Positions 40,001 to 63,083 of a stretch of DNA of 64,000 nucleotides are shown piece by piece; position 1 is the stretch's first letter; each line of letters starts with the position of its first letter. This stretch comes from Antedon mediterranea. Its lineage: Eukaryota; Echinodermata; Crinoidea; Comatulida; Antedonidae. The stretch spans positions 5,118,922 through 5,182,921 of the forward strand of contig NC_092678.1 in the NCBI RefSeq assembly GCF_964355755.1, in the 5' to 3' direction. The notes beneath the pieces are model-generated. The model was not told the origin of the DNA. It saw only the letters and a program-made list of their open reading frames with translations, and searched no databases. The position numbers and the translations under genes were made by a program.

Positions 40001-41575
40001 GGAACCACGCTTAAGAGGACAGGGTGTATGTACAGATTAAACGTTCCATGAATAATATCTGTATAAATAATAATGGTATAAGATACCCTTATTCTTTTAA
40101 AAATTTAAATGATCGACTTTTGTGAGTTCATATTTGGGCACATCACACTTATTTTGTCAAACTAATTTGATAGTGTAGACAGAGCTAATGAATTGTTGTC
40201 TCCGTTAGCTGGTTGAAAATAAAGCTGCCCCTATGTATTTATATCTAATAAATTAACTGAAGAATGTATTAATTTTGATAAAACACTAATTAATTATGTT
40301 TGTATCTTTAAAGTGGGAGAATCACTCAAAGAGTTTAAAATTAGAGGAACAAATGTTGGATGGAATTAATGAGAAGATTCACGGTAAAGTGATGAGTAAC
40401 ACAGGCACCTGGATTGATTGGCATTATCTGTTGGACTCGGCAGCCCTGCTTACAAAAGTAAGTCTGGCTCGTGTTTACTTTAAGAAAAGCTCAGTTCATC
40501 TTTCCAAAGAGTAGGTGGTTACCCTGGTATACTGGTCCATTCATCCCCTGTCGTTGGGGACAGACAAACGGGTACCGTTTGGTGGCAGCACTTGCAATGA
40601 AGGGACCCTTAGGAGAGAAGAAAGTTGTTGTATGTGTCGTCCACACCTGTGCGCAATTCAGCTCAGTTAGGCTGCAAGTCACAGGTTATTCCCCCACATT
40701 TACAAATAAATTACACTTACCACTGTAAGTAGGCCTACTGTACTCGCATTGATCACCTTCCTTACTTACATCAAAATAAACACTGAATGAATAAATGAAT
40801 AAGCACTAGCTGGATAAATTAAGCAAAATTACTTTAAATTATTCTCCTATGGAGTAGAAAGTGATCAATGCGTCATCCACAAACACACCTGCATTGTATT
40901 CAAATTAGCAAAACTAAAGGAGTTAAATTATACTAAAATGATAATGATTTTGTTACGATAGTGTCGGTACACGTTACAGTACACATATCCGTATGCGTAT
41001 TACTTGGATTCTGGACCAATGAAGGACTTGTTTGAGTACCAACAAGCGCAGTTAGAAGCTGAAATTGAAAATCTTGCCTGGAAAGTTGAAAGAGTTGAAA
41101 CGACAGATCGAGGGGTAAGTAATAGTAATAATGGTAGTCTTATATAGCGCCTAATACAATGTTTCTAAGCGCTTTACATACAAAAATGATCTATAAAATA
41201 TCCTAAAGCTCTGTCTACACTATCAAACTAGTTTGACAAAAAAGTGTGATGTGCCCAAATGTCTAATGTCTAAATATGGTAGTGATATGTCGAAATATGG
41301 TAGTGATATGACATCATCATGTTCATATTTGGGCACATCACATTTTTTTTGTCACATTTACACCGCTCCGTTCTCCTTAGTGTACTGCCCGAACAACATT
41401 GTTACTTTCTGTGGCTAGAACTACTGACTGATGTTTTTATTATAGAATAAAAATTACAAGTTATATGTATTTATTTACAATCATAGTATTGTTGTTTTTT
41501 CTTTAGGATTTAGAAAATCAAATGGATGTTGCAGAGAAACGACGTTTAACTCTACTTCAAAGGTTTTTTCTATAA
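37002..41575 (+). CDS. ARIH2: E3 ubiquitin ligase ARIH2 (Ariadne-2, RBR type)
   Basis: Thirteen coding exons: 37002-37208, 37381-37448, 37538-37610, 37715-37865, 38041-38162, 38310-38419, 38685-38802, 39046-39096, 39216-39261, 39713-39840, 40314-40457, 40962-41114, 41507-41575. They give 479 aa against 493 in human. A very acidic N-terminus is followed by a UBA-like helix ([16 protein letters not shown]). Next comes RING1 (CPVC...[10 protein letters not shown], from Cys126), then IBR cysteines, then the RING2/Rcat domain GGCNHMQCSKC with catalytic Cys297. The Ariadne helices end in [11 protein letters not shown] and [18 protein letters not shown] ligases pass ubiquitin through that cysteine; ARIH2 works with neddylated CUL5 complexes (family knowledge). 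The last residues (QRFFL) differ from the vertebrate end. Several introns carry MITE/SINE copies. Confidence 0.97.
39340..39650 (+). mobile_element. tRNA-derived SINE in an ARIH2 intron
   Basis: The 5' head GTGGCCGAGCTG resembles a Pol III A box and GGTTCGAGGCTC a B box, about 45 bp apart. The body continues through CGTAGGTCCAGTGTACACAT and the tail is CAATCAATCAATCAATCA. Head, body and short-repeat tail fit a SINE. Partial relatives are at 9432, 32517 and 40458. Confidence 0.75.
39868..40013. mobile_element. MITE family A copy in an ARIH2 intron
   Basis: GCGTGGTTCCCACTAGAACG at the left and CCAATAGTGGGAACCACGCT at the right are clean inverted ends about 145 bp apart, with CAATGACAAGCG and CGCTTGTGATTGG inside. 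It is a good type copy of family A. Confidence 0.85.
40128..40190. mobile_element. MITE family B half-copy
   Basis: ATATTTGGGCACATCACACT followed by TTTGATAGTGTAGACAGAGC. Only the right half is kept. It lies in the intron before ARIH2 exon 11. Confidence 0.7.
40458..40720 (+). mobile_element. SINE-related repeat directly after an ARIH2 splice donor
   Basis: CTGGCTCGTGTTTACTTTAA and TTCATCTTTCCAAAGAGTAGG parallel the SINE body at 39480-39530 (GCTCGTGTGCACTTTAAAG, ACATCTTTCGAGACGAGTAG). The remainder differs. It starts within a few bases of the exon 11 donor (40458) and explains overlapping spurious open frames. Confidence 0.5.
41206..41360. mobile_element. MITE family B, complete copy in the last ARIH2 intron
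   Basis: AAAGCTCTGTCTACACTATC starts the element. TGTGATGTGCCCAAATGTC and CATATTTGGGCACATCACAT form the inner inverted pair. A duplicated ATATGGTAGTGATATG is present inside. The right terminal repeat is partly lost. Confidence 0.75.
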
Positions 41576-41680
41576 CATGACTAGCAACTCAAAACTCTTG
41601 AATTTGAACAATTAATGCAAATAATCTAAAAAATCCGTGATCGTAACACAACTTCAACTACTAAAATATGCTATAGAAAT

Positions 41681-41790
41681 AGAGTGCGGTATAATCTCCA
41701 AGGGAGTGCGGTATAATCTCCGATAAAGTGCGGTATAATCTCCGATAGAGTGCGGTATAATCTCCGATAGAGTGCAGTATAACCTCCGAT
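41681..41790. repeat. 22-bp tandem repeat, five copies, in the ARIH2 3' UTR
   Basis: The unit GAGTGCGGTATAATCTCCGA plus TA is repeated five times with little drift, about 105 bp after the ARIH2 stop codon. Confidence 0.85.
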
Positions 41791-42230
41791 ATTACATATG
41801 GTGGATTGCCTAAATGGAAATCCAAAAAGTAGGTATGCACTATGTTTTTATCTGGCAAAATGCCAATTAACTACTGTTTTGTGAGATGTGGAGACCGTCA
41901 CCATCAAACATATATTCAAACAAAAATATATTACTACTTCTGCCTCCTGCACTCTTTTTTGAGAAAGTTATTCATTAACAACCAGCTCCAACAGGTTAAA
42001 ATATATAAGAGTATATTATGTTTAAATATTTATTCTTTCACATGTTTAAATTCATGTACAGTATATAATATCATGACTTAAAAAGTACATGTCATCATTA
42101 TCAAGATATTAATAATGTGCAAAATATATTAAAGTATATATAAATATTTTGTTCAGGGCAAGTCAGGTTTTACACGATGCAATGATGAAAAGTAACTAAG
42201 TTGTATTGCTTTAACAATAGTGGTGATACT

Positions 42231-42372
42231 AAAGCTCTGTCCACACTATCAAACTTTATGTGACAAACAAATGTGATATGCCCATATATGGACATGATGA
42301 TGTCATATCACTACCATATTTGAGCATATCACTACCATGTTTGGAAACATTACACTATATTAAAATAGACAG
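42231..42372. mobile_element. MITE family B copy downstream of ARIH2
   Basis: AAAGCTCTGTCCACACTATC, GTGATATGCCCATATATGG and CCATATTTGAGCATATCAC are present. The right end is decayed (TACACTATATTAAAATAGACAGA). Confidence 0.7.
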
Positions 42373-52358: not shown

Positions 52359-52558
52359 TTAAAGTTCTGTTTTTGAATTGTCTATAACTGATTTATCTAA
52401 TTCCTCTTTTACTATATCGCCTTCAAAATTATCTGGTAATACTTCGTCTTTTTGATTTGTTTCTTTTTGTTTGTTGGTTTCATTATTGTTACTGGTTTCT
52501 TTTTCTTCTTCTTTTTCTTCGTTTGTGTCATCAACTATTTCTTCATCGTCCTCTTCAT
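52359..52558 (-). CDS. CRELD alternative last exon, acidic tail ending KTEL
   Basis: After a TTTTTTTAAG acceptor the exon reads on from the common donor (phase 1) as EEDDEEIVDDTNEEKEEE through a Glu/Lys/Asn-rich tail of 66 residues ending DNSKTEL and TAA. KTEL is a plausible KDEL-type ER-retrieval signal; human CRELD2 likewise ends in an acidic tail. There is no membrane segment. An AATAAA (complement of 52344-52349) follows the stop closely. This exon is a choice against the one at 53599-53795. Confidence 0.75.
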
Positions 52559-55500
52559 CTTAAAAAAATGAAAACAGGCATCTGTTACTTTTCTGGTTTT
52601 CAGAAAAAATGTATCTCTGATTTTTTTCTTTGTTCTACCACAATGATAGTCCTGGCCAAATCACAAGAACGTTATGCACATTGTTATTGTGATTCTTTTA
52701 TTCTCATCTACTGTATTCACTTTACAACTGTCACTGATCTTCAAGGCCAAGCTCCAAAGTGAGCCACCTGGAATAACTAGTACTTATGAACACAAATATG
52801 AACACAAATGACACAAATTGGTCCCTAGACTTAATAGGAACATATAAAAGTACCAAATTGGACCTTACAATGATAAAAGTAAAAGATAATTCAAATGTAA
52901 AAAATTCTTATACAGTATTTATTTCATAAATAGTATACCACATCTAACCTTACAACACAGCACTTTCATTACACATATAAAATTGTTTTAATAAATTACA
53001 AATTAATTTCAATACAGGTGGTTCTTAATGTCCAAACATTACTTATTCAGCCTATGGTAAAAACACATTGATTTGAATACAGGTGGTTTTATTTAGTTTA
53101 AATAATTGAATATACAGGTGCCAGCTCAGTATATTGAATAAATTAAGGTCCTTTTCTTAACAACATAATTGTACCTGGAAGGATATCTCAAAGGGTGAAC
53201 AATCACCAAATTATTAAAATGTTAATAACATATTCTAATACCGCATTAAGCACACTTAAAATGGAGGTTCAAAGGTCAAACTATTTCAAGTATAAACTTG
53301 GTAAGTATTGCATAAGTCCAGACCAAATCAGTATCATCCACTATTGAATAAAACTATTATTGCAAATTGTGTTAAAAATGGACGATACCAAGAAGCACAT
53401 TCAATCTTGGTTTCTTAACTAACTCATTAAAAAAACAACCCACACTCTCTTACTTTAACTTAAGTACATGTACACATTCAATACAAATAAATAAAATCAT
53501 GTACTACAAATGGACATTTCTAAGTACTATTACTTCAGAAGAAATTTAAAAACTTCAGAAAATTCATGATAGAAATTACAAGTTTGCAAGATTAGAATTC
53601 AACCATCTAATTTCAAAGGCTTATCAAATATTTTCGACAGATACCAAAATCCAAGGCCTAGACCAAATACCATAGCTAGCAAGGGACTGTTACGACTGGC
53701 TATTATGGACCCAATTAGTATAAAGAAATACAAAACATAGGTAAGGATCTCCCCGGTGGTTGAAAGCTCAGTTCTCTTCTGTGATAACTGTGAAACTGGA
53801 AGACAAGAAGAAAAAGGGCCTAATAAATCAAATGAAATAGAAAATAAAATCAATAAAAGCCTAGCAAATAAGTTTGAGAAGAAGGGTTACCTATTTGATA
53901 TATATTACTCTAGAGAAATAGGACTACAAAACCACAAAATATTATGACCTCTGACCTAACCAATCAAAACTACTATGATCACCTCCGCAATAAATGCTTA
54001 AGAATGATTGTAGAATACTTAATAAGTTAGAATACGTACTTAATAAGTTTGAATACTTACTTAATAAGTTTGAATACTTACTTAATAAGTTTGAATACTT
54101 ACTTAATAAGTTTGAATACTTACTTAATAAGTTTGAATACTTACTTAATAAGTTTGAATACTTACTTAATAAGTTTGAATACTTACTTAATAAGTTTGAA
54201 TACTTACTTAATAAGTTTGAATACTTACTTAATAAGTTTGAATACTTACTTAATAAGTTTGAATACTTACTTAATAAGTTTGAATACTTACTTAATAAGT
54301 TAGAATACGTACTTAATAAGTTAGAATACGTACTTAATAAGTTTGAATACTTACTTAATAAGTTTGAATACTTACTTAATAAGTTTAAATACTTACTTAA
54401 TAAGTTAGAATACTTACTTAATAAGTTAGAATACTTACTTAATAAGTTAGAATACTTACTTAATAAGTTTGAATACTTACTTAATAAGTTTAAATACTTA
54501 CTTAATAACTTAGAATACTTACTTAATTTTTTATCAATGCACTCTCCTCCCATCAATTCAAAGCCATCCTCACAATCACACCGATATCGTCCAGGAACAT
54601 TCTTGCACATTTTGTGTTCGCCTGTGCATCCATGGTCATCACCTTCACATTCATTTATATCTATAAAAACATAAAATATACCGTTATATATGTCTTTCAA
54701 GTCAATCGGTTTTGAAACTTTTAGTCTTAGCAGCACTAAGTCTAACTTTGTAGTATAGGCCTTAAGCTCTGTCTACACTATCAAACTTTATGTGACAAAA
54801 AAATGTGATGTGCCCATATTTTACTTCTGCTGCCTCTCGCTTATGGAATGACCTACCCGCCTCTATTAGATCATGTTCTTCTACTATCGCCTTTAAATTT
54901 CTTTCAAATTGAGCTCTCTCATACTTACTGCTGGAATTGGCGCATTACAAATTCGTATTATTATTATGGGCCCAATGGTGTCATATCACTACTATATTTG
55001 GACACATCACGCTTTTTGATAGTGGAGACAAAGCTTAAGCCTAAATTGCCTTTCTTCGCAATATTTATTGCTTCCAAGATTGCCAATTGTTTTGTAGTTT
55101 TTGGATAACAAAATACGACACTTCATTTAAGATCATGTCAAAATTGTTCTTCTCCAGTTACTGCAGTAACTACATTTTCTACCTTATGAACGCACATTAT
55201 TTAAACGTGGAAGTTTATAAGGGACTCGCTGCAATAAACCATTTGTTTATATTACCTAAATGAGGCTTGGTTGCTTACCTTCACAAATTCCTTCATTCAT
55301 GATGTAACCATCGCCACATTTCACGCATTTATCATTTCCTTTACCCAGACATTGATCACAAGAAGAATGACACGATTCACAATCATAAGATCCTTCGTTA
55401 TTTTCACAATATTCAGTGGCTTTGCAGGGAGGCTCTTCTGCTTCACATTCATTAACATCTGAAATCAAGTCAATTATATTACAGTCACTTTATACTTTAT

Positions 55501-58500
55501 GAGAATATCCTTTTGAAAATGCACTTTTTGCATTTCATACATACATACAATCTATCTAATAGTTATGACCAACAATATTGACTTTAGTTACCTTGGCAAC
55601 CAAGCTCATCATTCCATAACCATCCATCTTTGCATTCTTCACACTCTTTTGGTTCCGGTCCTTTACACTTTAAACGGCACGACTTATGGCATTCTACAAA
55701 TAAACAAGAAATATTTCTTACAAAAAACGCTGCTCGCTTTATTGACGTAACAGTTTTAAAGATATATTGTCCCTCTGAAAAATATTTTTTATTTCAAATT
55801 TGTTTTTGAATGTGTCATTTTATTGTCACATAATAGTTATTTTACCTGAAAAAATGTAATTAAAAGCAAAAAATACTTCAATTGTCTGTCAGACAATGTG
55901 GTTTTTGAGTTATAATAATTAAACGTTTCTTTTCTCTTTTTATAATGTGAATTTTGTTACAGAAGTGAATAACTTTGATATGAAACAGACTCAATTTAGT
56001 TTATTTTATTGCTAAGGTCAAGTCTGGGGGTCACTTCATCACTTAGATACTTCAAGTGTGAAGTATCATATTACAAACAAAAACTTTCATGGACTGTTTT
56101 GATAATAATTCAATGATTATCTGACAGCGAAATACAGTATTGTCATGGGACTCATAAATACCAGAAATGCAGCTGGTACACATAAATTATAGTCTAGTTT
56201 CCATTTTAGCAAAAATGTCAAAGTGTAGTACAGTACTATAACTGCTGCTTGATTTCATCTAATAAATTAGTCATCTCGTGCGACGTAGCGGGCTAGAGCA
56301 GCAGCGTGAAAATACATATCAAAATGGGCAATTATTGAATAGGCACTAGTTAGTAAGAGTACTGTATAGGACTGCCATAGTAATTCACTAGTGTTTTAAC
56401 CTATAGATATACTATAAGCTATAATACTAATAACCATTTATTTCGACTGATAAAAGTATTGCAGTTTGCTCTGTCTGGCGTCTGCACTATCAAACTAGTT
56501 TGACAAAAAAATGTGATGTGCCCAAATATGGTAGAGATATGACATCATTGTGTCCATATATAGGCACATCACAATTTTCTCTCACATAGTGTAGACAGAG
56601 CCTAAGAACTAGACAATTTTGGAGTTTAATGAGTCAGCAATCTTCATACCTGTACACAGAGTATCTGTTTCATTTTTAAACTCTTCATAATGTCCATCTT
56701 TACACTCGTCACATACCAAGCCAGTGTAGCCAGCTTTGCAGTCACATTTTCCACTGCCTGCTCTTGTACCACTACCCTACAAAATAGAATTCACCTCAAA
56801 TTAGCTGCAATGCAATGGCGTAAATGGCAGAAAATCCTATTTTCCGTTTAAGCCTCACCCAAGTGTCCTAAAAATTGTTGAGGTTTTACGGTATTTATAA
56901 AGATTACATTATATAGTACTGCTTAAATAGAAAACAAAATCATGCTCTTACAAAAAAGCTAAAGATTTGTAAATAACTTGCTAATTACAGTATAGATAAA
57001 TTGTAGGCTTAAGGGGTGGAGTAGAAATAGTAATGAACCCTGGACCACCAAGCTATAGCTCCATGACATCAAAACATCTACCAATTTAAGACTAAAACAT
57101 GTTTAGTAGTACGTTACACACCTTACATTCCCCCTTGTCTTGACATGGTCTTTCTATACCTCCAGGACATTCTAAATCAAATAGAAAATAAACTCTGATT
57201 AACATCATCTGTCCATTAAATAAAATTTCTTTTTGAACAACCAAAAACTAATATAAGCGAACTTACAGTACGTTTCGAAACCTATCAGGTTTCATTCTCA
57301 ACTGGCGTTTCATCGTCTAGCGTTGTTAGTCCCATGACGACGATGAGTTGGTATAGCGCCACCAATAGGTCCAACGCTAGACGATGAAATGCCAGTTGAG
57401 AATGAAACCTGATAGGTTTCGAAACGTACTGTAAGTTCGCTTATATTAGTTTTTGGTTGTTCAAAAAGAAATTTTATATAATACCTATTGCACAACCAGA
57501 TGAAATGAAACAAATCATCTGTCCAGGTCTGAATTTCTTAGGCATACAATACGGGCAAAGCACTTACCTTGACATTCAGGACCAAATGTTCCATTAATGC
57601 AACAATCTAAAAAAAGCACAAAATGTTAATGTGTGATGATTTTAAAGTTATTCTACAAGTGTTGATACAGTGGATATTCCTACAAAGGACACTGTTCTGT
57701 TTTGACCAGTGTGGCCCACTAGAGGGGGTAAGATCCAATTTTATCATTTTTTAATTATGTAGAAAATGTTTTAAATCACATACATTTTAATAAGTCTATA
57801 CAAAACCACTGTAAAAGATCTGGAAAATCTTGTTGATGTTCTTTCCACCACTCTTCTAAAATTTCTTCATTTTCTTCTAGTAATGTATGACACTGTAAAA
57901 GTAGAAAGTTAATACAAGCCATTAAATTCTGTTTATTTTTGTAGCCATTGTGTTGGTTACTGGTTATTTTAACCACCATATTGGTTACTGGCCATTTTAG
58001 CTGTTTTGGTGTTTACTGGCCATTTTAGCTGCTGTGGTGTTTGCTGGTCATTTTAGCTGCTGTATTGGATACTGGTCATTTTGGCTAAAAACTTTTACAA
58101 AAAGATTTTACCTCATGTTTTGATGATTCACATATATTATCTGTAATTTCTATAAATCTAGTTTCACTGAAAAAAATAAGAAAAAACCAACAATAAAAGT
58201 CAGACATATTAGGAAAATATCAACAGATATTAAGGACACTTTCTTGGCATAGACAAGACATTTACTGATCAGTGATAGTAAGTTTTCAAATCAAGTGCAC
58301 TGATCTTCACTTAATACCATCAGTGACTTTATTCCTACCTAGTTTGGTAGGTACCAAGTTTTTTCTCCTCCCAATCCACATCACCTCCTCCAAAATTGTA
58401 CCTTGAAGTGCGAGTAATGCCCTGTAAACAAATTATAACACAAAATTAAAATTAATAACTTCAACTTCAAAACAATGTCTTATTCATTTTTTAGAAATAA

Positions 58501-58660
58501 GAGCTTGAAGAGAAGGGAAACTAACCTCTTGAAAACCATTTACAATGTTTCTGCAAGTTTGACATTTCTTAATGGTATCTTTTCTTTTTCCTGCAAAACT
58601 GCTTTGATGAAGTAAACTTACAAATATTAAAATCGTCAGACTTGTCCACGAGACGTTCAT
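52359..58660 (-). CDS. CRELD: CRELD: cysteine-rich with EGF-like domains, with alternative C-termini
   Basis: Common exons on the complement: 58660-58526, 58421-58339, 58166-58112, 57892-57784, 57606-57568, 57171-57122, 56776-56650, 55693-55592, 55458-55279, 54660-54523. Two phase-compatible last exons follow: 53795-53599 (404 aa in total) or 52558-52359 (405 aa). The product has a signal peptide (MNVSWTSLTILIFVSLLHQ) and a CxxC early motif (CQTCRNIV). A WE-type segment (ILEEWWKEHQQDFPDLLQWFC) follows, then EGF-like modules (GKCDCKAGYTGLVCDECKDG), furin-like cysteine repeats, and two calcium-binding EGF modules opening DVNECE and DINECE. In vertebrates CRELD1 (membrane) and CRELD2 (ER, stress-induced) are two genes acting in ER protein maturation; here one gene could make both forms. 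The ATG is one base after an acceptor (CCCACCAG|C), so a 5' UTR exon lies upstream. Confidence 0.93.
53142..53598 (-). other. Probable 3' UTR of the membrane CRELD form and intron of the other
   Basis: AT-rich sequence between the two alternative last exons with no coding potential that I can see. The same holds for 52560-53141. Confidence 0.5.
53599..53795 (-). CDS. CRELD alternative last exon, double membrane segment
   Basis: The acceptor TCTTCCAG is followed in phase 1 by SQLSQKRTELSTTGE, then two hydrophobic stretches (ILTYVLYFFILIGSIIA and LLAMVFGLGLGFWYL) separated by SRNSP, ending DKPLKLDG and TGA. This is the paired-helix C-terminus of CRELD1. TTTATT at about 52918 (AATAAA on the minus strand) could serve as its polyadenylation signal. 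Confidence 0.8.
54010..54535. repeat. 21-bp minisatellite made of copies of the CRELD splice donor
   Basis: About 24 units of a 21-bp repeat. On the minus (gene) strand the unit is GTAAGTATTCAAACTTATTA plus A. The first unit is the authentic donor of the exon ending at 54523 (TTAA|GTAAGT). Twenty-one units keep GTAAGT and three have GTACGT. Each copy is preceded by TTAA, as in the real donor. The unit is seven codons, so the frame stays open as LSKYSNL repeats. Confidence 0.95.
54762..55038. mobile_element. MITE family B split by a LINE 3' fragment
   Basis: TTAAGCTCTGTCTACACTAT to GTGCCCATAT (about 54818) is the left half. From about 54969, ATATCACTACTATATTTGG to GTGGAGACAAAGCTTAA is the right half. 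The 150 bp between translates as SAASRLWNDLPASIRS..., a typical end of a CR1/L2-type reverse transcriptase, with one stop, and finishes in ATTATTATTAT. It is a LINE tail that landed in a MITE, within a CRELD intron. Confidence 0.8.
56467..56605. mobile_element. MITE family B copy in a CRELD intron
   Basis: GCTCTGTCTGGCGTCTGCAC at the left, GTGATGTGCCCAAATATGG and CATATATAGGCACATCACA inside, and TAGTGTAGACAGAGCCTAAG at the right. Nearly full length. Confidence 0.8.
57219..57479. mobile_element. Foldback element with arms of about 107 bp in a CRELD intron
   Basis: The left arm (57219-57325; ...AACTTACAGTACGTTTCGAA...) is mirrored almost base for base by the right arm (57372-57479; ...TTCGAAACGTACTGTAAGTT...). 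About 46 bp of loop lies between (CATGACGACGATGAGTTGG). It has no coding content. The arms differ at very few positions, which implies recent insertion or gene conversion. Confidence 0.9.
57955..58085. repeat. 28-bp tandem repeat, about 4.7 copies, in a CRELD intron
   Basis: Units read GGTTACTGGCCATTTTAGCT plus GNTNTNGT with moderate drift, the first unit being the most diverged. Confidence 0.8.
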
Positions 58661-60310: not shown

Positions 60311-61363
60311 TTAGGTGTATATTTCCCTTCCCGGCTGTGCATACAGTGGTATTTCTACTCTACGATATGTGACTTGTTTATTTTCAATACTATTAGGAAT
60401 TACCATCTTTCCAAGGCGTTTCCACCTTCGTTTATATGGTCTTTTCATTTCCTGAACTTTGGACTTCAAATGCACTTTTAAATGGTTTTTTAAACTTTTA
60501 CTATCCCTAAAATTTCTTCCACAATTTTCACATTTGTACGGCCTTAAGTGTATTTCCATATGTTTTTTTAAATGTTCATTACGGCGAAACTGCTTACCAC
60601 ACCGATCACATATACATAACCTCTCCCCCGTGTGTGTTTGCAAATGCCTTTTAAAATGGTCTTTTCTTGCCAATATTTTACCACAATGTTCGCACTCAAA
60701 TCCTGCATTATCAATGTGTCTTTTATAATAATCTTTTCGAATAAATCTCATACCACATTTGTTACACTCATAAGGAGTCTCCCCTGTATGCAGCCTAACA
60801 TGTATTTTTAAATAATGGCCATGTTTAAATTTCTTTCCACAGTGTTTACATTCAAAGGGTGTTTCTCCCGTGTGTACTCTCATATGAACTTTCAATGAAC
60901 ATTTTTGGTTAAACCCCTTTCCACACAATTCACATTTGTAAGGCAGTTTACCTGTGTGTACTGTCAAATGCCTTTTTAATACTGATATTTTGTTAAATAT
61001 TTTTTCACAATGTTCACATTTATATGGTGTCTCTCCACCATGTATCATTAAATGTCTTTTTAAATAAGACTTTTTACTGAATGTTTTCCTACAGTGTTCA
61101 CACTCAAATTGTTCAGCCTTTTTTACTCTATGAATCCAAAGATGTACTTTTAAAGTTCCATTGTGTTTAAATTTCATCCCACAGTGTTCACATTCATATG
61201 GCTGCTGATCATTTGAATGTTCCTTTAATCCTGGAACTGAAACTGAATGTCTTTTTGAATTTCCTTCTAACTCTACACTGTTTTCAGATTCATATTTTGT
61301 TATTGTTGTCAATATTTCACCGGCATCAACCTCCTTTTCAATCTCATCCTCCTCCAGTGGCAT
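60311..61363 (-). CDS. C2H2 zinc-finger protein, nine fingers
   Basis: A single open exon of 350 aa. Residues 1-54 are acidic and without a known domain. Nine C2H2 fingers follow from YECEHCGMKFKHNGT to YKCENCGRNFRDSK, joined mostly by TGE(T/R)P-type linkers, and a basic tail (KRPYKRRWKRLGK) could be a nuclear localisation signal. Finger 6 (YECNKCGMRFIRKDYYKRHI) runs straight into the next finger with DNAGFEC and lacks the second zinc-binding His, so it is probably degenerate. It is presumably a DNA-binding nuclear protein; no orthologue is assigned. The ATG has a strong Kozak context (GCCACCATG) and an acceptor-like TTTTAG just upstream, so a 5' UTR exon is likely. It lies upstream of CRELD in the same direction. 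Confidence 0.92.
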   Translation of the reverse strand: MPLEEDEIEKEVDAGEILTTITKYESENSVELEGNSKRHSVSVPGLKEHSNDQQPYECEHCGMKFKHNGTLKVHLWIHRVKKAEQFECEHCRKTFSKKSYLKRHLMIHGGETPYKCEHCEKIFNKISVLKRHLTVHTGKLPYKCELCGKGFNQKCSLKVHMRVHTGETPFECKHCGKKFKHGHYLKIHVRLHTGETPYECNKCGMRFIRKDYYKRHIDNAGFECEHCGKILARKDHFKRHLQTHTGERLCICDRCGKQFRRNEHLKKHMEIHLRPYKCENCGRNFRDSKSLKNHLKVHLKSKVQEMKRPYKRRWKRLGKMVIPNSIENKQVTYRRVEIPLYAQPGREIYT

Positions 61364-63083
61364 GGTGGCTAAAATGGTTTCTAAACTAATAAGATGTTTG
61401 TCTTATTTATTATTATATTTTGATTAAGATTTCAGTTTTACTAGTGTATTATATGATAAATCGGCCACCACATCAGAAACTGCCAGCTTGCTGCTGCGAA
61501 TAAATAAAATTGTATAATTATTATAATATAATTCTACTTATTTATTATGAATTTAATATTAATAAAGTTAGGTCTTTTTAAGCTAGCCTGTCTAGAGAGG
61601 CTAGTAATAATCTCTCCTAACCTAGGCCTCATCCCAGTCTACCCTACTTACTACCAAGACCATGCTGCTGGGCTTGGCCCTGGCATTTATTTTTTAATAG
61701 GCGCGCCTAGCTAGGCTAGGCTAGGGCCTAAAAAAATAGCCTAGCTAGAGGCCTACTACAGTATAATAACTACTTACTAGCTAGCTACTACTAGGATCAA
61801 AGCAGCGTCGCCCACAGCTACATATGTATAAAATAATACAAACCAAACAAACGTGTTTGACAACAAATTAACTTATATTAATTAATAAATAGAGGCCTAG
61901 GCCTAGGCCCTAGTAGTAGTAGGTCTATCTAGCCTATCCGAACGGGTGGTGTAAAAAAGAGACATTAAATTCCGCCCTCTAGGATGAGGCTGTCAACAAA
62001 CCACCAGATGACAAATTTAAACGCGTTTTAATACATTTTCAACGTATTAGTCGTTAGCAACATTTAAAGAACACAACAGACAAAAAAAGAGAGGGCAGTA
62101 TAACAGATATAGTCAAAACAATCGAAATGATTTAATTTGTTTTTAACCGTTTATTTATCGCCTTTTCGTCAATAAATTAGCAAATTATTGCATGCAAGAG
62201 GTGTGCATATTTTTAAGTTATTGGTACCAATGTAGTCTGTGCACTGCTTCCTAGCTAGAGGCCATTACTAAACTAGTGTAGGAGGCCTAGCTAGCTAGCT
62301 AGGCCCTACTAAATAAAACTAACTAGCCTACTAGAGGGTAGTAGTAGCAGCACTGCAGCCCTCTAGAGGTAGCCTACTAGCAGAGAGTAGTCTAGTAGGG
62401 GCCTACTAGCTAGAGAATCAGGCTATCTAGACTTGTTCTTACTGTTCTACTGTATCAACAACAAACCTTCCAAGTAGGCCAGTCATTCAAACAGGACATG
62501 CCCCTATCTAAAATACTATGCCCAGGCATTTTTAAAATGTTATGCTTTATTAATATTTGTTAATAACAATAGGCCTAGTTAGGCTATATTATTTATATAT
62601 ACATTACTAACATTACATACATATTTCGAATTTGTTTATAAAGTTAATAATAACTAATTAATAATAAATTAATATTATTATTAATATTAGTATATTGTAT
62701 TTATAATTTAATTATAAGAATATTTTTCAACATTTCCATAGTCATCATACAACCCCCTCCGTTAAACAGTTACTTCAGGAGAATTTAACTCAAATTGGTT
62801 GTTATGTGGCATACTGAATAATATGTAAAATAAATTACATATATTTATTTATAATAATAAATCAATGCATATTGATGTAGTCGCACTCAATATCCATCCC
62901 ACCCACCAGGCAATAAACTTTGTAAATGTAAATTTTATTGAATTTTAACTATTGTTGTAATAATACTTTATTGAATTTTGTATTGTTGAGGGCCCCTCAA
63001 AATCAGCTTACGCTGGCTGGGTCACCCTACCCTCTTTAAATATTGTTGAATAAATAAATAAATGCATTTGTTCTTTCTTTCAG
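61364..63083. other. Intergenic region between the zinc-finger gene and the gene at 63148
   Basis: No coding exon is supported. Dense CTAG/AGGCCTA words and AT tracts make up most of it, with a small simple repeat AATAAATAAATAAATG at about 63045. The 61900-62050 part is less AT-rich and may include a divergent promoter, but nothing decisive is visible. Confidence 0.5.

Follow-up and report, generated by a model that had tools for sequence, protein, structure and literature searches.

A splice-donor array at the edge of a CRELD exon and its apparent counterparts in other genes of Antedon mediterranea

Introduction

In the human IFI6 (6-16) gene, a minisatellite is described as giving multiple splice donor sites (Turri, Cuin and Porter 1995, NAR 23:1854). 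Two downstream repeat units are reported to serve as donors, resulting in three mRNAs (PMC4526556). In avian exon stuttering, described for dot chromosomes, the lateral part of an exon is copied into the intron together with its donor or acceptor (PMC12954441, 2026). Exon stuttering is recurrent across genes, shows strong length polymorphism (shown in chicken), has been noted in gerbils and is tied by its authors to GC-rich DNA. Internal tandem repeats are also found at exon–intron boundaries in human segmental duplications, where they alter splicing (PMC2812944), and introns originating from tandem arrays have been described (Zhuo et al. 2007, PNAS, as cited in PMC2891723). A literature search for identical tandem donors in invertebrates returned nothing beyond the papers cited here.

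Here, we describe an array of 24 splice donors in a CRELD gene of the crinoid Antedon mediterranea. Like IFI6, this gene has tandem units at an exon end, with the array adjoining the exon and a donor in each unit. It differs from IFI6 in gene, unit and organism; furthermore, use of downstream units is reported for IFI6, while the CRELD donors are known from sequence alone. As in avian exon stuttering, there is a local expansion over an exon edge and its splice site, and the exon itself is intact. The copied exonic part is 5 nt in CRELD and 18–38 nt in four other genes discussed below (DHX8, TDP2, UTP6 and HUWE1), and over all cases it spans 4–38 nt, versus 20–187 nt in birds. The association with GC-rich DNA and dot chromosomes, which is a reported feature of exon stuttering and not its definition, does not extend to this genome, where the arrays lie on several large contigs and the 64,000-nt window around CRELD has a GC content of 34%. 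The arrays resemble those of PMC2812944 and Zhuo et al. in being minisatellites (units of ~30 bp on average) at exon–intron borders. Those studies deal with how new introns arise, whereas the CRELD intron was not born from its array: both acceptors that it can use (53795 and 52558) lie outside the repeats.

The CRELD gene and its two last exons

The stretch of DNA analyzed (the window) comprises 64,000 nt and corresponds to positions 5118922–5182921 of contig C9 in the genome assembly G000 (354 Mb, 18 contigs). The CRELD coding region occupies 52359–58660 on the minus strand of the window. Ten of its exons are common to both predicted products, and these are followed by a choice of two last exons. 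The exons, rebuilt from the sequence, have consistent phases and ordinary splice sites, and the gene is complete. Its product contains DUF3456 and EGF domains (matches to PF11938 at 8.7e-10 and PF07645 at 2e-07) and carries CQTC, a CXXC motif, in its N-terminal region within DUF3456/WE, consistent with membership of the family; a search of NCBIfam with the product gave no match. At the level of similarity searched, CRELD is a single-copy gene, with all strong matches at its own locus. A genome search for CRELD retrocopies, which would reveal real splicing, found none.

Exon 10 (54523–54660, minus strand) is the last EGF exon. It encodes a calcium-binding EGF module, DINECEGDDHGC...CIDKKL (PF07645 at residues 294–333), and ends in phase 1 at its donor. 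From here the transcript can continue to exon A (53599–53795, minus strand), which encodes two hydrophobic segments ending in ...KLDG and gives a product of 404 residues, or to exon B (52359–52558, minus strand), which encodes an acidic tail ending in KTEL and gives a product of 405 residues. The acceptors of both exons are in phase 1, and both products are open. In Caenorhabditis elegans, alternative last exons of crld-1 result in CRLD-1A and CRLD-1B, a membrane or a KDEL isoform, and vertebrates have two genes (PMC6245729). The predicted products thus follow the crld-1 pattern: from a single gene, the choice of last exon gives a C-terminus with either a pair of transmembrane segments or an ER-retention-type tail. 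The tail is KTEL here and KDEL in C. elegans, and the available part of the crld-1 account mentions no donor array (PMC6245729).

The introns flanking exon 10 measure 618 and 727 nt. The second of these, between exon 10 and exon A, would measure 244 nt without the 23 extra repeat units, and it is in this intron that the choice between the two C-termini falls.

The window holds other features besides the donor array. CRELD holds another minisatellite (57985–58086; 28-bp unit), which starts ~26 bp past the donor of exon 3, and a long inverted repeat within a CRELD intron (~57250–57450) is probably a small inverted-repeat transposon. Several C2H2 zinc fingers are encoded by a single minus-strand open frame at 60311–61402 (363 codons). 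An element containing GTCTACACTATCAAACT... and CACATCACATTTTTTTGT... recurs at 54760–55040, 56440–56600 and 41266–42343, as well as near one of the arrays elsewhere in the genome (L068, see below), and is probably an abundant miniature transposon.

Anatomy of the donor array

The array (54023–54526, minus strand) consists of 24 tandem 21-bp units, TTAAGTAAGTATTCAAACTTA, that read LSKYSNL in the frame of the exon. In the output of Tandem Repeats Finder (TRF), it is a single array at 54016–54527 with a period of 21, 24.4 copies, 97% matches and no indels. As a tandem repeat it is far beyond chance. The authentic donor of exon 10, GTAAGT at 54517–54522, is the first of the series. It is followed at 21-bp steps by 23 further copies (54034–54501; 20 GTAAGT and 3 GTACGT), so that donors are found at 54522, 54501 and onwards to 54039, with TTAA|GTAAGT in 21 units and TTAA|GTACGT in three (54333, 54312 and 54039). 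The array ends in a degenerate half-unit, TTAAGTATTCTA, from which an open frame runs to the stop that ends the intron-retained reading (53942–54022, minus strand). The bases shared between exon and array are just the last five of exon 10 (ATTAA). The array has a GC content of 19%.

All donors in the array carry A, not G, at position −1, and they pair with U1 at moderate strength (−7.5 kcal/mol in GTAAGT units, −3.8 kcal/mol in GTACGT units), compared to −2.4 to −11.7 kcal/mol for the other donors of CRELD. Twelve neighboring units (12–23) are identical, which suggests recent growth of the array as judged from its sequence. Its copy number probably differs between individuals. A DNA search of the 354-Mb assembly that skipped common words, and that leaves absence unproven, did not find a second array of the same unit.

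These results bear out much of the original prediction. Its count of 24 tandem 21-bp units with 21 GTAAGT and 3 GTACGT donors is exact by unit-by-unit reading, and its identification of a CRELD gene with two alternative C-termini agrees with the domain matches and the rebuilt exons A and B. It had also stated that all donors share one phase and that no stop interrupts the frame, which is true for all 24 donors with either last exon. Its description of about 24 donor copies needs an adjustment: there are 24 donors, of which the first is the authentic one, leaving 23 extra.

Reading frame of the array

With all 24 donors in phase 1, each step into the array adds seven residues, and reading through the entire array remains open until the stop near 53942. 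The spliceosome might therefore pick among the donors, generating proteins with 0 to 23 extra seven-residue blocks and a ceiling set by the repeat number of the individual. The in-phase, stop-free arrangement of all 24 donors is what such a mechanism would need, and the two downstream IFI6 units reported to act as donors (PMC4526556) provide a precedent. However, near-identical units make a stop-free frame a test of one unit and not of 24. When random 10–60 bp units from the window are repeated 24 times, 25% of the resulting arrays have no stop in a given frame, which is the share of in-phase open arrays expected by chance. For random 21-bp units, the share open in the given frame rises to 63%, and for 21-bp units containing TTAAGTAAGT in the frame of CRELD to 65%. 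Such a ladder is moreover possible in only two of seven comparable arrays in the genome (see below). Selection on the phase was accordingly rejected as evidence, the in-phase frequency (2/7 arrays; null ~25%) being about that of chance. Periods divisible by three are likewise about as common as chance would have it (21, 30 and 39 bp; three of eight arrays).

Purifying selection on the LSKYSNL code was considered as well and rejected. The array contains four distinct substitutions, three of which alter the amino acid. This is as expected without coding constraint, given that the 63 possible changes to a unit comprise 43 non-synonymous, 11 synonymous and 9 stop changes, although four substitutions are too few for power; it also argues against a ladder of protein lengths. 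We consider it unlikely that donor choice along the array sets the length of CRELD. Equally doubtful is the outcome that it would have for the cell, in which one individual makes graded CRELD chaperones through measurable use of the inner donors, the LSKYSNL blocks preceding whichever tail, membrane or KTEL, is present. The 21-bp period probably falls in frame by chance rather than as a dial for protein length.

Exon-edge arrays in other genes

The rest of the genome was surveyed with searches for arrays containing strong donor motifs, and the sequence upstream of the first motif was read for 32 other arrays (L061–L092). Given that the survey is biased toward the motif and covers the first places of each search, it informs on recurrence and not on rate. 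Seven of these 32 arrays start at the donor of a coding or coding-like exon, in genes for DHX8, TDP2, UTP6, HUWE1 and a TPR protein and at two unassigned loci (L068 and L073).

In DHX8, the exon end and donor are repeated ~22 times with a frame-breaking 37-bp unit (L061 1357–2160; C1:17776256–17777060), each unit consisting of the last ~28 nt of the exon and 9 nt of intron. DHX8 is itself a splicing helicase. The TDP2 array repeats an exon end and donor ~28 times with a 31-bp unit (L062 1448–2346; C1:41208047–41208945), and the UTP6 array does so ~10 times, again with a 31-bp unit (L075 ~976–1320; C1:454875–455220). HUWE1 has an exon end in its intron with three donors and a 30-bp unit that is in frame and open (L083; C9:24970928–24970996, minus strand); this is perhaps an early stage of exon-edge copying. 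The products of the first donors identify these genes in sequence searches of the PDB. DHX8 (E 6.7e-58; 102/102 residues) and HUWE1 (2.1e-32; 93/93 residues) align to human chains at equal lengths, and matches were found for TDP2 (7.5e-30) and UTP6 (9.6e-46). Each unit carries at least 28 exonic bases in DHX8, at least 24 in TDP2, 22 in UTP6 and at least 18 in HUWE1 (range 18–38 nt), and the units of these four genes are hard to account for other than by copying of an exon edge.

The remaining three cases are less complete. The gene for the TPR protein, which has weak TPR matches, contains an exon end in two blocks of 39-bp units ~2.6 kb apart (L079 and L093; C2:634624–638108, minus strand). 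Its junction VPPR|DNFA is in frame, and the first step of the array measures 40 bp instead of 39. For the L068 gene, the junction LFGFD|DEAYLD is in frame, and its product gave no match in the PDB search or in NCBIfam. For the L073 array, the downstream exon was not found. A mirror case at an acceptor is present in DDX54 (match 6.3e-37), where the exon start and acceptor occur three times with a 39-bp unit (L099 307–391; C1:41235906–41235990). Here, a unit with TTTTTCAG|GTCGTGTAG is repeated upstream of an intact exon. This was the one mirror case among ten arrays read in a scan for acceptor motifs.

The positive arrays lie on contigs C1, C2, C3, C4 and C9 and range in GC content from 19 to 48%. 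Between 20.09 and 23.67 Mb, contig C3 also carries numerous blocks of the satellite families AGGTGAGTAACATTAGATCATTAGGGACAGGTAT and AGGTATGTACACACTATAACAA, possibly a pericentromeric region.

A coincidental origin of the CRELD array deserves consideration at this point, with an ordinary intronic minisatellite abutting the donor and an accidental match to TTAAGTAAGT. Minisatellites make up ~5% of the window, and the array shares just five bases with the exon. Genome-wide there is also no excess of donor-motif arrays: threefold GTAAGT gave 7481 matches versus 7495 for the reversed control, and threefold AGGTAAGT gave 177 versus 236. Other motifs are in excess genome-wide, which looks to be carried by a few satellite families. 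Counts of motif arrays thus do not show donors to be struck more often than other sequence. Against coincidence, the array begins exactly at a real donor and each unit restores that donor, and at least four genes, each identified independently, show this arrangement with long stretches of exon in the unit. We therefore regard coincidence as quite improbable. As read from these sequences, exon edges have repeatedly been copied into introns in this genome.

Which donor is used

An open, in-frame product results from all donors in CRELD (24/24) and HUWE1 (3/3). In the other five of the seven comparable genes, an open product requires the first donor (DHX8, 1/22; TDP2, 1/28; UTP6, 1/10; the TPR gene, 1/5; the L068 gene, 1/4). 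DHX8 and UTP6, among others, have kept frame-breaking arrays, which suggests that the inner donors are not used often, as such arrays should otherwise have been removed. The simplest inference from these sister arrays is that the first, exon-bounded donor would be the one used. This agrees with minigenes containing two identical CAG/guaagu donors, in which exon definition leads to exclusive use of the upstream donor (PMC9225289); this rule comes from human cells and from two donors, versus 24 in CRELD.

Under intron definition, the preference is reversed and the downstream one of two equal competing donors is favored (PMC9225289). If this applied to CRELD, the last strong donor would be constitutive and the protein would always contain ~150–160 repeat residues. 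However, the CRELD introns (618 and 727 nt) are in the range of exon definition, and the donor of the last unit is among the weakest of the array (GTACGT, −3.8 kcal/mol). Splicing from the last donor would break the frame in DHX8 (+800), and stops intervene in TDP2 and UTP6. Constitutive use of the last donor is thus very unlikely.

The extra donors could also act without being spliced, by binding U1 and slowing splicing to exon A, thereby altering the ratio of membrane to KTEL forms or favoring intron retention. The array lies within the intron of this very choice, and one pre-mRNA can bind several U1 snRNPs, the surplus being removed later (Hodson 2012, as cited in PMC8283771). Yet there is no sign of conservation or constraint on the array, and similar arrays occur in DHX8, TDP2 and UTP6 without an apparent choice of last exons. 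We hold such a regulatory role to be highly improbable.

The best reading of CRELD, drawn largely from its sister arrays, is use of the first donor; the other 23 would be mostly silent, with low-level use of inner donors possible. The insertion point in the CRELD protein is a linker, where use of inner donors could be tolerated, unlike in DHX8. The original prediction had proposed the array as a source of stepwise variation in protein length. This proposal is not supported: five of the seven genes are barred from it by frame, the phase is that of chance, and the minigene rule favors the upstream donor.

Proposed origin and consequences

We find it probable overall that the CRELD array is an exon-edge minisatellite whose first donor is mostly used by exon definition, whose frame is due to chance and whose copy number is probably polymorphic. 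The end of exon 10 and its donor, together a short block, would have been amplified in tandem into the intron, presumably by slippage, while the authentic exon and donor stayed intact at the 5′ end of the array. The same mutational habit has affected several other genes of this genome, either at a donor or, in at least one case, at an acceptor. Splicing would proceed mostly via the first donor through exon definition, and the 23 copies would bind U1 transiently at best before being lost with the intron. The consequences would be a longer intron (from 244 to 727 nt to exon A), a copy number that probably varies and no more than minor amounts of isoforms carrying additional LSKYSNL blocks.

The original inference that the repeat was born by duplication of the donor is supported, the signs of exon-edge copying being far clearer in DHX8, TDP2, UTP6 and HUWE1. 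For CRELD itself, exon-edge duplication is likely, with its birth at the donor resting partly on analogy, as its unit contains only five exonic bases.

Outlook

The CRELD case alone is ordinary for this genome; its interest lies in the recurrence of such arrays and in the ready-made test of donor choice that they offer. What is new here is the presence of exon-edge arrays in an AT-rich invertebrate genome, following the precedents of IFI6 (1995) and avian exon stuttering (2026). Exon stuttering has so far been tied to GC-rich avian dot chromosomes, and its apparent occurrence in an AT-rich genome suggests that GC-richness is not required. Frame-neutral arrays (CRELD and HUWE1) and frame-breaking arrays (DHX8, TDP2 and UTP6) coexist in this one genome. 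Together, they provide a natural test of which of two dozen near-identical donors a cell uses.
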